Source: a bacterium
GTDB taxonomy: Bacteria; Patescibacteriota; Minisyncoccia; CAIUEV01; JAHKAQ01
Length of the DNA: 13,054 bases
Assembly (NCBI GenBank): GCA_018399475.1
Contig: JAGYOS010000068.1
Location: 1 to 13,054, forward strand
Direction: 5' to 3'
Shown here: one piece after another, positions 3,607 to 13,054 of the stretch
Layout of the letters: each line of letters opens with the position of its first letter
How positions within the stretch are numbered: the first letter of the stretch is position 1
Translations under genes and position numbers: made by a program
Notes under the pieces: generated by a model
What the model was told of the DNA's origin: nothing
Database searches by the model: none
The model's input: the letters and a program-made list of their open reading frames with translations, nothing else

Positions 3607-4587
3607 TTAACCTCTTTTTTGTTTCCACCAAACTAAAAGAGGAGAGGCTAAAAATATTGAAGAATAAGTTCCGGAAATTATACCGATAATTAAAGCTAGA
3701 ATAAAATAGAAAGTGCTTTGTCCTCCGAATAATAAAATACAAGAAAGAACCAACAAGGTTGTCGTTGAAGTATTGATTGAGCGAACTAAAGTCTCGTTCA
3801 CGCTTTGATTTACAACTTTGCCAAAATTCCCACTGCCTTTTTTCAAAATGTTTTCTCTAATTCTATCAAAAATCACGATAGTATCGTTTACTGAATAACC
3901 GAGGATAGTTAGAATGGCAGCGATAAAGAAAGTGTCCACCTCAACTCCACGGAAATGACCTAAAACGGCAAATAAACCCAAAATAATTAAGACATCATGG
4001 ACTAAAGCGATAATGGCAATCAGGCCGTAGCGGAAAGACTCGTATTTATTTATTTGGCTGGAGACTCCTCTAAAAGCCCAAGCTATAAAACCAATAATGG
4101 CTAAGAGAACAACAATTATAGCTCCTTGTGATTTTCTTTTTAGCTCTTCCCCAATAGAAGGCCCAATGGAATCAAATTTGGTTTCGCTAACCAATTCCTC
4201 TCCTTCCACAGCCAAATCTTTTTGGATTTCAGCTGTTTTCTCTTTTATTTTATTTAATGTCGCTTGATGAGTTTTTTCATCCATCGCTTTTAATTTCAAG
4301 ATTACCTCTTTATCCCCGACCGCTTGGATAGTTACGTTTTCTTGCCCTTCCGAATTTGAGATTACAATTCCTTCCAATTCTCCCGAACTATTCCCAAGGT
4401 CGCCGCTTAAAGCTTCTTTAATTTGCTCGTTGGTTATTTTTTCTTTTAAAAATTCAAGCCGCATTAAAGAGCCTCCTGTAAAATCAATCCCCGGTTTTAA
4501 ACCCCACATAATTAGGGCCAAGAGGCTTAATCCCATTAAAATAGAAGAAAAAGTGAACCAAATTTTATTTTTACCGATAATATTCAT
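3607..4587 (-). CDS. secF: protein translocase subunit SecF
   Basis: Partner of SecD in the ion-motive-force-driven complex that pulls and releases preproteins on the outer face of SecYEG. It is 326 residues, close to the E. coli length. An N-terminal membrane segment (about 10-30) leads into GLKPGIDFTGGSLMRLEF (about 29-46), then the periplasmic P4-type domain (about 45-145), then five membrane helices. The family signature LVHDVLIILGLFAVLG (195-210) and ILGYSVNDTIVIFDRIREN (228-246) are intact. The gene starts 10 bases after secD; an AGAGG inside the secD tail lies 16 bases from its ATG, long for a normal Shine-Dalgarno spacing. No insertion comparable to that in SecD was seen. Confidence 0.97.
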   Translation of the reverse strand: MNIIGKNKIWFTFSSILMGLSLLALIMWGLKPGIDFTGGSLMRLEFLKEKITNEQIKEALSGDLGNSSGELEGIVISNSEGQENVTIQAVGDKEVILKLKAMDEKTHQATLNKIKEKTAEIQKDLAVEGEELVSETKFDSIGPSIGEELKRKSQGAIIVVLLAIIGFIAWAFRGVSSQINKYESFRYGLIAIIALVHDVLIILGLFAVLGHFRGVEVDTFFIAAILTILGYSVNDTIVIFDRIRENILKKGSGNFGKVVNQSVNETLVRSINTSTTTLLVLSCILLFGGQSTFYFILALIIGIISGTYSSIFLASPLLVWWKQKRG

Positions 4588-4597
4588 TCCGTTTAAT

Positions 4598-6280
4598 TTA
4601 TTTCCTCTTTTTAAAACTGACTAAAATTAAAAATTTTTCCTTTAAAAATAAGGCCAAGAATTCCAAAACATTTCTAGTTACAAAAACCGCCGTAAACATA
4701 CTTAAAGAGACTCCAATTCCCAAGGTGATGGCGAAACCTTTGACCATGCCTGTTCCTAAACTAGCCAAAACGACGCAAGTTATTAAAGTTGATATATTGC
4801 CGTCTCTGATAGAAGACCAAGCTTTTTTAAAGCCATTGTTTATTGCCAATTTTGGCGGGCTTTTTTTCTTCAATTCTTCCTTGATGCGTTCAAAAATAAG
4901 GATATTGGCGTCTACTGCCATTCCTAAAGATAATATAAAACCGGCAATTCCCGAAAGAGTCAGGGTAATGCCTAAAATTTTAAAAGTGGCTGCCATGATC
5001 AGGGCATAAAAACTCAAGGCGAAAACGGCTACCAAACCGTAAATTAAATAAAAAACCAGCATAAACCCGGAAACAAGACTTAAGCCCAGCAAGCCGGCTG
5101 TTAGACTTTTTTTCAAAGAAGCAATCCCCAAAGAAGCCCCCACTTTTTCCTGGCTGACCAATTCAATTGGGACAGGCAAAGCTCCCGCATTCAATCTTTT
5201 AGCTAACTCTTTAGCTTCGGTGATATCCTGGGATCCGGTAATGACAGCCTTGCCGTCGGCAATAACAGTTTGGACAACCGGAACGGTAATTGGCTCTCCG
5301 TCTAAAAAAATAGCCAGCCGCCTGCCGACATTCTTTTCGGTTATTTCTTTAAACATTTTTTTACCCTCTTCATCAAATTGAAGAGAAACTTGAGGCTCTT
5401 GAGTATTCGGATCAAAAACCACTTCCGCTCGTTTTAAATTTTTTCCGGTAAGCAAGGTGGGTTTAAAGGGTTGGCTGGGCATTGCTTTGTACTCTTCATC
5501 AGCAATTTCAAAAAGAATATGGCTCACCTTAACCTGTTTTTGCCCCGCTTCTTCTTTTTCTCCGGTTTTTTTAAGCAAGTGATAGCCGAATGGAGTTTTA
5601 ACCAATTCAGGCCAAACAGAACCTTCTTGAAATTCTTCGTTAAAAGCCACTTCTTCAAATTCGGGAACCATCATTCCTTTCCCAAAGAATCCCAAATCCC
5701 CTCCTTGTTCTTTATTGGAAGCATCAGCAGAATTTTCTTGGGCCAATTTGGCAAAATCTTCTCCACTCAAAGCTTGCTGTAAAATTTTTTCCGCTTGAGC
5801 AAGATTTTTTTTATTTTTTTCCTTGGCCTCCTCTTGCTCCTCGGGAGATAATTTATAATCCTCTGCGTTTTCTTCCTCTCTGAAATCCAAAATGGGAGTT
5901 TCCCCGATCATGGAGATGGCTGCTTCAATATCGGAAACTCCGGCCATATCAACAATAATCCGATAATTTTCCCCGGATTTATTGGTGAGAACCTGAGGCT
6001 CAGAAACTCCGTAAGCGTTAATTCTTCTTTCAATAACATCGCGAATACCGCTTAGGCTTTCTTCCCAATTTTCAGGCGGTATTGCCGACATATTCGCTTG
6101 ATAAACCAAATGGGCTCCTCCTTGCAAATCAAGGCCCAGTTTTATTTCCAAGCCTCTTAAGGTTTGGCCGACGTTCTTTCCAAAAAGATTAAAATCCGGC
6201 ATTTTCGGGTAAGCGATAATTCCGGCCGCTAAAATTAGAAAAATCAAGGCAAAAACATTGGAGTAAATTTTTTTTCTCAT
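4598..6280 (-). CDS. secD: protein translocase subunit SecD with a parvulin-type insertion
   Basis: Export motor subunit using the ion gradient. I chose the ATG at 6278-6280 (560 residues), because MRKKIYSN followed by a hydrophobic helix (about 8-24) is the normal SecD N-terminus; a TTG at 6343 would add 21 residues of unlikely sequence. In order: the membrane helix, LGLDLQGGAHLVY (48-60), RINAYGVSEPQ (86-96) and ILDFRE (130-135), then an insertion at about 136-270, then PTLLTGKNL (274-282), the rest of P1, and the SecD/SecF membrane domain from about 392. LSLGMAVDANILIFERIKEE (450-469) contains the conserved Asp457. The insertion has prolyl-isomerase motifs in permuted order. It lies between secA and secF with short gaps. 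SecD identity is certain; isomerase activity is inferred. Confidence 0.97.
   Translation of the reverse strand: MRKKIYSNVFALIFLILAAGIIAYPKMPDFNLFGKNVGQTLRGLEIKLGLDLQGGAHLVYQANMSAIPPENWEESLSGIRDVIERRINAYGVSEPQVLTNKSGENYRIIVDMAGVSDIEAAISMIGETPILDFREEENAEDYKLSPEEQEEAKEKNKKNLAQAEKILQQALSGEDFAKLAQENSADASNKEQGGDLGFFGKGMMVPEFEEVAFNEEFQEGSVWPELVKTPFGYHLLKKTGEKEEAGQKQVKVSHILFEIADEEYKAMPSQPFKPTLLTGKNLKRAEVVFDPNTQEPQVSLQFDEEGKKMFKEITEKNVGRRLAIFLDGEPITVPVVQTVIADGKAVITGSQDITEAKELAKRLNAGALPVPIELVSQEKVGASLGIASLKKSLTAGLLGLSLVSGFMLVFYLIYGLVAVFALSFYALIMAATFKILGITLTLSGIAGFILSLGMAVDANILIFERIKEELKKKSPPKLAINNGFKKAWSSIRDGNISTLITCVVLASLGTGMVKGFAITLGIGVSLSMFTAVFVTRNVLEFLALFLKEKFLILVSFKKRK
5471..5875 (-). other. insertion in SecD P1: apparent circularly permuted PpiC/parvulin domain
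   Basis: Domain-level annotation inside secD, residues about 136-270 of the 560-residue protein. A charged linker is followed by helix LAQAEKILQQALSGEDFAKL, then GGDLGFFGKGMMVPEFEEVAF (two pieces: Asp195 in GGDLG, Met203/204 and Phe208/Phe213 in MMVPEFEEVAF), then VKTPFGYHLLKK with His234. These are normally the middle and end of a parvulin. The usual first strand, VKVSHILFE with His254, comes afterwards through a short linker GEKEEAGQKQ. In the parvulin fold the first and last strands are neighbours, so this order is structurally reasonable. Both active-site histidines and the Asp/Cys-position residue are present. An alternative reading is remnants of two tandem copies. Confidence 0.8.
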
Positions 6281-6350
6281 CTGAAAATTTTTACTGAAAG
6301 ATGATTCTTTAAAATAAACCTTATTAGAAAATTGTAAAATCAAAAATATT

Positions 6351-6369
6351 GTTAGCGGTTAATGCTAAC
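6351..6369 (-). promoter_or_regulatory. small hairpin over the secA stop codon
   Basis: GTTAGC and GCTAAC form a perfect 6-bp stem with a 7-base loop on the minus-strand transcript; the secA TAG stop lies within the stem and a short AATATTTTT run follows. It could weakly terminate, or modulate passage from secA to secD. The pairing is seen directly, but a stem this short can arise by chance. Confidence 0.3.
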
Positions 6370-9178
6370 GACCATATTTGGGATAACAGCACTTTTTATA
6401 CTTTTTACCGCTGCCGCAAGGGCAGGGATCGTTACGGCCCACTTTCTTACCGGCTTTAATCGGAACAGCTGTTTTTTCAACATTTCCGGCTGATTCCGTT
6501 TTTTCCTCTTCTCCGTTTTGGAAAAAACCGCTTTGGCCGGTAGCGGCTCCTTTCAATTGCAGCTTAGTAGAATCTTGGACTTTGGCTTCCCCTAAAATGT
6601 TTTCTTTTTTGGGAACCGTGCCTTCGGCTTCTCCCTTGGGTATTATTTGGATCTTAAATAAAGTTTCTACCGTTCTGAGACGAATACTGTTTAAAAAGTT
6701 TTGAAACATTTCAAAACCTTCTTTTTTATATTCAACCAAGGGGTCTCTCTGCCCGTAGCCTCTTAAGCCAACACCTTCTCTTAAATGTTGCATATTATCC
6801 AAATGTTCCATCCATAAAGTATCCAATGTTCTTAACATAATCGCTCTTTCCAATTTTCTCAAGACTTCGGCTCCAATTTTCTCTTCTTTAAGTTTATAGA
6901 CTTGAAAAGCGTAAGCCAAAATTTCCTTTTTTATTTTTTGTTGTTTCTCTTGAAGCTCTATTTTTTGGCTTTGGGCAATTGATGCCACTTTTTCCTTTAA
7001 AGATTCTTCAGCGCCAAAAAGAGAATGGCAGTATTCAAAAATTTCTTTAGTATTCCATTTAGAAGAATCTTCCGCTCTGGTGTGAAAATGCACAAAGTCT
7101 CCCACTACTTCTTCAACGGCATTTTTAAATTCTTCCCCGCCGGTAATCCCCAATAAATTTTGGCGTCTCTTTTGATAAATTGTTTCCCGTTGGCGGTTAA
7201 TCACGTCGTCGTAATCCAAAACGTGTTTTCTGATATCAAAATTAAAGCCTTCAATTTTCTTTTGAGCCGATTCAATAGATCGGTTGATGATCCGGTTCTC
7301 AATAGGCTGGTCTTCAGGCAAACCCAAAGTATCCATTATTTTTTTAATCTTTTCAGAGCCGAAACGCCTCATCAATTCATCCTCCAAAGAAACATAAAAC
7401 TGCGAACTTCCCGGATCGCCTTGCCTGCCTGCTCTTCCTCTCAACTGATTGTCTATTCTGCGAGCTTCATGACGTTCCGTTCCAATAATATGCAGACCGC
7501 CCTTTTTAACCACGCCTTTTCCAAGTTTGATGTCCGTCCCTCTACCGGCCATGTTGGTGGCAATAGTAACAGCTCCCGCTCTTCCGGCTTGGGAAATAAT
7601 TTGAGCTTCCCTTTCATGGTTTTTGGCATTTAAAATCTCATACTCAATTCCTTCCCTGTCCAAGTATTGGGAAAGAGCTTCTGATTTTTCTACGGAAATA
7701 GTTCCCACTAGAACCGGCTGTTTTTTGCTGTGGCGGGCTTTTATGTCTGCAGCAATAGCATTAAATTTGCCTTTCTCGTTTTTATAAATCTTATCGGAAA
7801 AATCAGTCCTAACCATTTTCTTGTGAGTCGGAATATTCAAGATATCCAATTTATAGACTTTAAAGAATTCTTCCGCAGAAGTAAGCGCCGTACCGGTCAT
7901 ACCGGCTAATTTTTTATAGAGGCGAAAATAATTTTGGAAAGTGATAGTAGCCATCGTCCGGCTTTCTCTTTGAATCTTAACTCCTTCTTTAGCTTCCAAA
8001 GCTTGATGTAATCCTTCCGAAAAGCGGCGGCCGGGCATTAACCTGCCGGTAAAATCATCTACAATTATTACTTCGCCTTCTTTAACAACATATTCCTTGT
8101 CCTTTTTAAAAATGGCCTGGGCTTTTAGAGCTTGATGCAAATGGTGAACATATTGCATTTGACCCGTCAGGTAAAGATTATCAATACCCAGCATTTTTTC
8201 CACCCTACTGATTCCCCTGTCGGTCAAAGTAACTGCCTGCATTTTTTCGTCAATATTGTAATCTTTATCCAGAGTTAAACGGGGAACGATCTTGGCAAAT
8301 TTTTGGTAAAGTTTGGTTGATTCTTCATCCGGAGCTGAAATAATCAAGGGAGTTCTGGATTCGTCAATCAAAATATTATCAACTTCGTCAACAATGGCAA
8401 AATTTAAGTAATCTTTTTTAAACATTCCTTCTTCATTCTCCTCTTGATTTTTTCCTTTTTTATTTTGTTTCGCTTCTTCTTCTTTTTTCAAAGCCGGAAA
8501 ATCTCTAATTTGAACCATCTGCCCGAGACTGGGAACCATATTATCTCGAAGATAGTCAAAGCCGAATTCATTATTGGTCCCGTAAGTGATATCCGCCCGG
8601 TAAGCTTCTTGGCGAGAAACCGGCCTTAAGTTTTCATATTCAATGCTGGTTTCATTGGCATCCGGTTCAATTTCTTGATCAAAAAGGTAAGCCGTATCAT
8701 GCTGGACACAACCCACCGAAAGCCCTAGAAAATTATAAATGGATCCCATCCAATTTGTATCACGGCGGGCTAAATAATCATTGACCGTTATAATATGCAC
8801 GCCCTTTTTCTCCAAAGCATTAAGATAAACCGCAAAAGTGGCGGCTAAAGTTTTTCCTTCACCGGTTTTCATCTCAGCTATTTTTCCTTGATGCAAAGCT
8901 ATTCCTCCTATCAGCTGGGTATCAAAAGCTCTTTGGCCAATAGTTCTTCTCCCGGCTTCTCGACAAACTGCAAAAGCTTCCGGCAAAAGGCTGTCTAATG
9001 TTTCTCCCCCCTTTACTCTTTTTTGGAATTCGCGCGTCTTTTCTTTAATTTGTTCCTCGGATAATTTTTCAACTTCTTTCTCTCGCTCATTAATAGAGGC
9101 AATCAGAGGTTGAATTTTTTTTAATTCCTTAGCGTTAGGATCACCAAGTAAATTTGATATTTTGGATAAAAAATTCAT
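6365..9178 (-). CDS. secA: preprotein translocase ATPase SecA
   Basis: Cytoplasmic ATPase that drives unfolded preproteins through SecYEG. It is 937 residues, starting at ATG 9176-9178. Walker A MKTGEGKTLAA is at 103-113, TVNDYLARRD at 131-140, TYGTNNEFGFDYLRDNM at 198-214, and the DEAD-like DEVDNILIDESRTPL at 264-278. The second nucleotide-binding domain has ATNMAGRGTDIKLG and QLRGRAGRQGDPGSSQF. The C-terminus carries the SEC-C zinc motif CPCGSGKKYKKCC (Cys919, 921, 930, 931), which in the family binds zinc and SecB or ribosomes. Two extra stretches relative to usual SecA are seen: about 164-187, and a Lys/Glu/Asn-rich low-complexity piece at about 227-256 just before DEVD. No Shine-Dalgarno sequence precedes it. 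Confidence 0.98.
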   Translation of the reverse strand: MNFLSKISNLLGDPNAKELKKIQPLIASINEREKEVEKLSEEQIKEKTREFQKRVKGGETLDSLLPEAFAVCREAGRRTIGQRAFDTQLIGGIALHQGKIAEMKTGEGKTLAATFAVYLNALEKKGVHIITVNDYLARRDTNWMGSIYNFLGLSVGCVQHDTAYLFDQEIEPDANETSIEYENLRPVSRQEAYRADITYGTNNEFGFDYLRDNMVPSLGQMVQIRDFPALKKEEEAKQNKKGKNQEENEEGMFKKDYLNFAIVDEVDNILIDESRTPLIISAPDEESTKLYQKFAKIVPRLTLDKDYNIDEKMQAVTLTDRGISRVEKMLGIDNLYLTGQMQYVHHLHQALKAQAIFKKDKEYVVKEGEVIIVDDFTGRLMPGRRFSEGLHQALEAKEGVKIQRESRTMATITFQNYFRLYKKLAGMTGTALTSAEEFFKVYKLDILNIPTHKKMVRTDFSDKIYKNEKGKFNAIAADIKARHSKKQPVLVGTISVEKSEALSQYLDREGIEYEILNAKNHEREAQIISQAGRAGAVTIATNMAGRGTDIKLGKGVVKKGGLHIIGTERHEARRIDNQLRGRAGRQGDPGSSQFYVSLEDELMRRFGSEKIKKIMDTLGLPEDQPIENRIINRSIESAQKKIEGFNFDIRKHVLDYDDVINRQRETIYQKRRQNLLGITGGEEFKNAVEEVVGDFVHFHTRAEDSSKWNTKEIFEYCHSLFGAEESLKEKVASIAQSQKIELQEKQQKIKKEILAYAFQVYKLKEEKIGAEVLRKLERAIMLRTLDTLWMEHLDNMQHLREGVGLRGYGQRDPLVEYKKEGFEMFQNFLNSIRLRTVETLFKIQIIPKGEAEGTVPKKENILGEAKVQDSTKLQLKGAATGQSGFFQNGEEEKTESAGNVEKTAVPIKAGKKVGRNDPCPCGSGKKYKKCCYPKYGR

Positions 9179-12752: not shown

Positions 12753-13054
12753 ATGGGAGTTTTTTCTTATTATTTTTTAAATATCTCGGCCGGATTAAGT
12801 GAATGGCTCTTAAAGTTTTTATTTTTTTGGCTGGTTGAAGGCCCTAAAAAGTATTGGCAGAAAGCCTTAAGCCTCTCTGCCGCTTTTGAAAGCCTTTGGG
12901 CAACCTTGATAACCTTGCGTTATTTTTTCTCCCCTCTTTATCAAGACTATTCTTTAACCGGCCGCATAATCGGTCCCTTTTTTAGATTGGGCAGAGTAAT
13001 AGTCGGAATAATGACCCATCTTCTCTTATTGGGAATTTACTCTGTCATCTTTTT
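12753..13054 (+). CDS. unrecognised membrane protein, 3' end beyond window
   Basis: I translated this by hand: 100 codons are open from ATG 12753 to the right edge with no stop. The protein is strongly hydrophobic and aromatic. The N-terminus MGVFSYYFLNISAGL is followed by a likely membrane segment (about residues 19-29, LLKFLFFWLVE). A middle part holds LWATLITLRYFFSPLYQDY (about 50-68), then GRIIGPFFRLGRVIVGIM and another hydrophobic stretch running off the edge. The RYFFSPLYQDYSLTGRIIG segment looks like a conserved-type motif, but I cannot name the family. It has its own promoter and no Shine-Dalgarno sequence. Codon use and base composition resemble the neighbouring genes. The function is unknown. 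Confidence 0.75.
   Translation, partial: MGVFSYYFLNISAGLSEWLLKFLFFWLVEGPKKYWQKALSLSAAFESLWATLITLRYFFSPLYQDYSLTGRIIGPFFRLGRVIVGIMTHLLLLGIYSVIF

Follow-up and report, generated by a model that had tools for sequence, protein, structure and literature searches.

Parvulin-type prolyl isomerases such as PrsA, PpiC and Pin1 (PF13616, PF00639) carry strand 1 of their sheet at the beginning of the domain, and SurA and PpiD bring parvulin domains of this order close to the translocon exit as separate proteins. An AlphaFold model of E. coli SurA with Thermus SecDF, described in the excerpted text of PMC9987972, sets the two SurA parvulin domains on the P1 head of SecDF, and the same excerpt proposes cooperation of SecDF and SurA at the translocon exit from low-resolution data and models. 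Here we analysed a 13,054-nucleotide stretch of contig JAGYOS010000068.1 (assembly GCA_018399475.1; hereafter the window) from a tiny, uncultured member of the Patescibacteriota, which encodes a SecD on its minus strand. Unlike known SecD and SecDF proteins (TIGR01129; 3aqp, 5yhf, 5xan), this SecD has a 138-residue parvulin insert at the junction of the P1 base and the P1 head, so that the part on which the excerpt has the SurA parvulins modelled is the part adjoining the insert. With PrsA, PpiC and Pin1 the insert has in common the fold elements that run from helix 1 through the last strand, together with the histidine pair, the acid and the proline pocket, but its strand 1 comes last and it sits inside a membrane transport protein; in contrast to SurA and PpiD, the parvulin is fused in cis and permuted. 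We consider it probable, with good though not full confidence, that the insert is a circularly permuted parvulin that assists folding in cis where proteins leave the Sec channel.

Strand order of the SecD insert

The protein scored 369.9 bits against TIGR01129 (cut-off 244.4) in a profile search, and Pfam matches to P1 base, P1 head and SecD_SecF_C follow one another in this order, with SecF adjoining. A longer frame of 581 residues starts from TTG at 6343. The boundaries of the insert were set by profiles of the N part and the C part of SecD: it lies after the P1 base strand ILDFRE and before the P1 head, where insertless SecD relatives have only 17–71 residues. The original prediction, made from the sequence alone, had proposed a clean insertion between conserved SecD flanks at 5471–5875. 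These coordinates fall correctly inside the minus-strand SecD open reading frame (ORF), and the profile-bounded insert, with PF21760 before it and PF22599 after it, agrees with a clean insertion, the insert proper reaching down to 5462 (Table 1). The insert matched PF13616 (Rotamase_3) with 81.6 bits (cut-off 22.5, E 8.4e-23) and PF00639 (Rotamase) with 70.1 bits (cut-off 21.7), and its best sequence match in the PDB was PrsA 1 (6xd8, E 5.2e-16). The Rotamase_3 match covered residues 171–260 of the 581-residue frame and profile positions 27–113 of 116, leaving the first 26 positions unmatched at the N side.

In the excerpted text of PMC2678132, the parvulin fold is beta-alpha3-beta-alpha-beta2, with strand 1 first. 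In the insert, strand 1 lies behind the last strand, and we therefore class it as a circularly permuted variant and not as a standard member of the family. The order of motifs is the one originally read, helices-GGDLG-MVPEF-FGYHLLKK-turn-VKVSHILFE. To locate strand 1 we used an 11-residue matrix built on 35 distinct first strands, all taken from non-SecD parvulins of normal order. On the window SecD it gave 19.4 bits at KQVKVSHILFE, just behind FGYHLLKK, with 0.7 bits at the next best place and a maximum of 15.3 bits over 2000 shuffles. Homologues were drawn from the best 120 of 1419 proteins, which comprised 50 short-form (single-parvulin) and 45 long-form (two-parvulin) SecDs and 21 non-SecD canonical proteins (37 domains); this first set omitted four more long forms (P0053, P0056, P0062, P0063). 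Parsing of 201 SecDs for insert type (3 unparsable) then gave sets of 108 short and 62 long forms, counted without deduplication; two SecDs with an acidic insert (L008, L009) and two with a His-less one (L010, L011) were excluded from the 108. The best strand-1 window lay behind the last strand in all 50 whole short-form proteins and in all 108 short forms trimmed to the profile-bounded part (scores 4.7–31.4, median 19.6, second lowest 8.1), and no window exceeded 4.9 in 21 insertless SecDs.

When the strand was moved to the front with natural spacing, the 108 short forms gained a mean of 15.5 bits on the canonical profile (at least 3.4 each). All 200 shuffled or displaced controls were outscored in 107 of the 108; the window SecD went from 95.2 to 113.4 bits, the best of its controls reaching 107.4. 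The trimmed version of this test gives the spacing of a real parvulin. An upstream SecD stretch such as ILDFRE was also considered as the first strand and was rejected at ≤0.1 bits in the 4 proteins checked. The strand-1 position in 108 of 108 and the mean gain on moving the strand support the circular permutation, and the strand order and conservation of the insert are well supported. An assembly or annotation artefact has next to no probability and was rejected, as the arrangement recurs on independent contigs (P0002–P0004) and throughout the 108 short-form SecDs, which come from many records.

An AlphaFold model of the SecD was made from the alignment of 50 short forms. The predicted local distance difference test score was 85–92 in blocks of ten over residues 151–260 (whole-protein mean 82.2, predicted template modelling score 0.52). 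The model has helices at 146–171, 176–183 and 187–190, a strand at 195–199 (GGDLGFF), a helix at 206–212 (VPEFEEV), strands at 227–229 and 232–244 (GYHLLKK), and, after a two-residue turn, a strand at 247–258. Apart from the first strand having moved to the end, this is the set of elements that the excerpt of PMC2678132 gives for the parvulin fold, and both body and hairpin are predicted with confidence. From the model, the strands of the hairpin would pair and bring the two histidines close together in the short form. A search of a viral structure library with the model gave a best row of E 0.12.

Both active-site histidines, H234 and H254, were said to be retained, and each is invariant in 108/108 short forms; S184 is Ser in 107/108. 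M204 and F208 we take to be proline-pocket residues. The acid is a different matter: Asp195, in GGDLG, had been put forward as part of the active site, but it is probably not the Asp of the catalytic position, since it is Asp in 88/108 as against D186 with Asp in 104, Cys in 3 and Gly in 1. The Asp/Cys composition of this column makes D186 look like the position of Pin1 Cys113, which is Asp in PrsA according to the excerpt of PMC2678132.

Table 1. Coordinates of the insert, its parts and the surrounding genes, as positions in the window
Feature	Positions	Strand	Basis or remark
Insert, circularly permuted parvulin	5462..5875	minus	138 aa, residues 136–273 of 560-aa protein
Parvulin body	5549..5845	minus	Pfam Rotamase_3/Rotamase, PDB parvulin matches, AlphaFold
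Two-residue turn A245-G246, last strand to transposed first strand	5543..5548	minus	DSSP of model
Transposed first parvulin strand, residues 247–258 (QKQVKVSHILFE)	5507..5542	minus	Strand-1 matrix, model, strand-move score
H234, active-site His, last strand	5579..5581	minus	Invariant
H254, active-site His, transposed first strand	5519..5521	minus	Invariant
D186, likely catalytic-position acid (Pin1 Cys113 equivalent)	5723..5725	minus	Equivalence inferred
M204	5669..5671	minus	M 63, F 38 of 108
F208	5657..5659	minus	F 99, Y 8 of 108
SecD	4598..6280	minus	560 aa, ATG start 6278–6280
SecD P1 N-terminal (base) domain, last strand ILDFRE	5870..6043	minus	PF21760, residues 101–158 of 581-aa frame
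SecD P1 head domain	5171..5461	minus	PF22599, residues 295–391, profile 18–114/114
SecD C-terminal membrane domain	4655..5167	minus	PF02355, residues 393–563
SecF, partner subunit, downstream of secD	3607..4587	minus	TIGR00966, 275.1 bits (cut-off 160)
SecA, upstream of secD, same orientation	6365..9178	minus	ORF, sequence read by eye

Long forms, stand-alone foldases and origin

Long-form SecDs have a second parvulin, of canonical order, nested inside an outer permuted one (strand spacing read from alignment columns in all 62). The inner copy has both histidines in 62/62, and the outer permuted copy has His in 2/62 last strands and 4/62 transposed first strands. Profiles of the bodies were compared over 57 short, 22 long and 37 canonical rows. 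The mean score of outer bodies was 58.9 bits with the short profile, 41.2 with the canonical and 28.6 with the inner one; the outer-body profile in turn gave 74.1 for short, 47.7 for canonical and 37.4 for inner bodies. Inner bodies had no preference (80.6 short against 85.6 canonical). Since the outer blocks fit the short-form profile best of the three, we take the outer permuted unit to be the probable resident, to which the inner copy may have been added. On the other side, the short profile gave the decayed outer bodies less (58.9 bits) than the inner (80.6) and canonical (84.2) ones. The original prediction had held that homologues with a full second parvulin would reduce the insert to a decayed tandem repeat. 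SecDs with a second parvulin do exist, but we do not regard them as refuting the permutation, as their outer bodies resemble the short forms.

The reverse course, in which the permuted SecD unit is a decayed long form, seems to us unlikely. In L010 and L011 (genomes G255 and G056) the inner domain is missing and a His-less outer body runs straight into the last strand; they look like long forms stripped of the inner canonical parvulin, a His-less permuted remnant being left. On the SecD tree, where L011 was dropped as a near-copy, L010 falls inside a supported set made up of itself and 10 long forms (99*). They suggest shrinkage from long to short, but the shrinkage left a His-less copy, unlike the two-His short forms. 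Decay is also favoured by those SecDs whose very long insert holds a canonical parvulin as its inner copy, since the SecD tree, rooted at the midpoint only, draws them on its deepest branch, and by the higher score of inner than of outer blocks on the short profile (80.6 against 58.9), whereas the outer blocks fit the short profile better than the other two compared and the SecD tree is weakly supported and has no outgroup root. Insert types do cluster on this tree (15 changes against 51.3 shuffled, 131 rows).

Two other kinds of insert were seen at the same site. L008 and L009 carry an acidic low-complexity linker of ~120 residues. L125, L126 and L127 have very long inserts (346–348 residues by profile boundaries), made up of a diverged first part, a canonical parvulin and further residues before the P1 head.

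Parvulin matches outside SecD were collected from 46 genomes, chosen from 286 of the phylum and weighted to insert carriers, and yielded 18 stand-alone foldases of SurA_N type (L133–L150). The permuted order of SecD recurs in 15/18 (L133–L140, L142, L144–L146, L148–L150), and the canonical order was found in L141, L143 and L147, whose architecture is similar to that of the permuted ones, so that strand order seems to switch between related foldases. They differ from SecD in having SurA_N-like helices (an SurA_N-like domain, PF13624, in L142) and one N-terminal membrane anchor. Strands were scored by script in 16/18, of which 14 are permuted and 2 canonical; the remaining two, L143 in canonical and L148 in permuted order, were read by eye. 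Of these scores, 10 of the 14 scored permuted foldases gave 12.2–24.9. Both histidines are kept in 13/15 permuted foldases, with the first-strand His replaced in L138 and L139, and are invariant in the 12 foldases that were aligned. The permuted order is not specific to SecD, and since 15/18 stand-alone foldases share it, the permutation need not have arisen within SecD. Parvulin-body trees (105–106 columns) were poorly resolved, and on them either SecD or the stand-alone foldases may have come first.

Two further protein searches were seeded with permuted foldases. A single body with the strand only downstream was found in 12 of the best 120 of 445 proteins and in 27 of the best 120 of 1168, all 27 within the best 34 rows. 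Among them P0126 is from Patescibacteria, P0250 is titled 'bacterium', and P0155, partial, is from Zixiibacteriota; P0168 has a decayed second body, as P0155 may have. P0221 in this set is a 458-residue protein with a zinc-ribbon start. In four tandem PpiD/SurA-like proteins (P0129, P0139, P0151, P0153) the first strand lacks its His and the second body has decayed, while the first body and the SHIL strand between them are intact, and more such proteins with decayed outer halves were detected by script. The working parts of these tandem proteins are already in permuted order, so that losing the outer halves would yield a permuted single domain. The original prediction had proposed this route, duplication followed by loss of outer halves, for SecD itself; the four proteins support the route, though it fits the foldase family as a whole and need not have been taken inside SecD.

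Tandem parvulins show a body-linker-strand order in mid-protein, and proteins with decayed outer halves exist, so it might be asked whether the insert is a leftover of this kind, the body of copy 1 and the first strand of copy 2 forming no single domain or pairing only between two SecDs. We consider this very improbable. A decayed tandem should have lost an active-site residue or a fold element, and we found both histidines in every short form and the fold elements predicted in the window SecD. Both halves are conserved together in 108/108, the linker is short (20 residues from His to His in 71/108, range 18–47), the model consists of a confident body and hairpin, and a single permuted unit without outer halves occurs in other proteins.

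Proposed role of the insert

The strand order, conservation of the fold elements and histidines, the predicted hairpin and the recurrence in SecD and stand-alone foldases are supported by computation; the exact strand pairing in the short form, catalysis, the substrate and a coupling to P1 movement we infer. In the arrangement we propose, the parvulin chain would enter at helix 1 and leave at the end of strand 1 by way of the tight turn between last and first strand, and these permuted ends would let the domain sit in SecD P1 between base and head. The insert would most likely adopt the ordinary parvulin sheet, with H234, H254 and D186 in one site. It would then bind proline-containing segments of proteins as they emerge from SecYEG, or isomerise them, and so do the work of the separate PrsA, PpiD or SurA in cis.

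The permuted fold might instead serve as a binding or chaperone module, or as a structural extension of P1, and not as a prolyl isomerase. The outer permuted copy is kept in the long forms though mostly His-less (2/62, 4/62), L010 and L011 retain just a His-less copy, and SurA without its parvulin domains is functional in vivo, to judge by the title of a paper cited in the excerpted text of PMC8669966. These observations are set against both histidines in all 108 short forms, Asp or Cys at D186 in 107/108, and both histidines in all inner copies of the long forms, L010 and L011 being the exceptions. We hold the chaperone-only alternative to be rather doubtful.

Several points weigh against a permuted parvulin acting as an isomerase in cis. 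The strand of L109, one of the 108, scored 4.7, no better than what insertless SecDs reach, although it lies in the right place and has the His. Without trimming, the strand-move test gained a mean of 2.8 bits, and 33 of 48 were above controls (48 of 50 parsed). A search of the PDB with the whole-protein model (Foldseek, VIA) returned no parvulin chain among the best 50 rows, which were SecDF, RND and related transporters. The strand may conceivably be swapped between two SecD molecules. Of the 14 scored permuted foldases, 4 stayed below 11 (L139 4.7, L150 7.8, L145 9.8, L149 10.5). The histidines may be conserved for structural reasons. The excerpt of PMC2678132, a paper on SaPrsA, states that the Pin1 histidines are dispensable and that the double mutant retains surprisingly high activity; because of this, His conservation in the insert suggests catalysis without proving it.

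Distribution, gene neighbourhood and significance

SecD matches were found in 243/286 genomes sampled from the phylum, a figure that counts SecD and not the insert, because most listed matches span only the part after the insert. Among the best 80 of 497 loci, insert carriers were titled Moranbacteria, Kerfeldbacteria, Kuenenbacteria, Falkowbacteria, Buchananbacteria, Magasanikbacteria, Uhrbacteria, Komeilibacteria, Parcubacteria, Patescibacteria, Elulimicrobium or plain bacterium, named groups that we take to belong to Patescibacteria. In the same 80, parsing gave no insert-bearing SecD for Acidobacteria, clostridia or other phyla. A SecD of Patescibacteria type with the insert was also met on a contig under the title Lysobacteraceae (L040), which is probably misbinned. 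In-frame stops were met in three SecD frames of a read-through search (G195:C12, TAA; G189:C1, TGA and TAG; G077:C3, TGA).

In the window's genome (88% complete) the only PF13616 match is SecD, no cyclophilin was found, and the single FKBP match is, by eye, trigger factor. Thirteen insertless genomes of the window's own class (L112–L124) had no match to PF13616 or PF00639. In the window, secD and secF lie between secA and genes for ATP synthase subunits, named by eye and likewise on the minus strand. A partial ORF with hydrophobic stretches runs off the window end (12753–13052), downstream of a uvrA-like gene.

In the open-access literature we found no report of a circularly permuted parvulin or of a parvulin-SecD fusion, and no paper on the permuted order in Patescibacteria SurA_N-type foldases (subscription papers and preprints were outside the scope of this search). 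Novelty of the permutation is provisional; such proteins are already annotated in databases with the Pfam domains of both parvulin and SecD, though the permutation is not necessarily visible there.

A wider picture, which we offer tentatively and rate somewhat below an even chance, is that permuted parvulins form a class common in Patescibacteria, with members in some other proteins, and are the main extracytoplasmic prolyl isomerase there, that the insert, set in the moving P1 domain, makes SecDF a proton-driven foldase acting on prolines while chains exit the translocon, and that the nested long form records a conversion between permuted and normal order by duplication within a gene. A circular permutation that arose in nature, and in which 108 SecDs keep both histidines without exception, amounts to an evolutionary test of the tolerance of the parvulin fold for new chain ends. 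Plausible stages by which duplication turns one chain order into another can be seen in the nested long forms and in the tandem PpiD/SurA-like proteins. The fusion to SecD provides a natural argument for joint action of SecDF and parvulin chaperones at the translocon exit, and the insert suggests where some reduced cells hold their extracytoplasmic prolyl isomerase.
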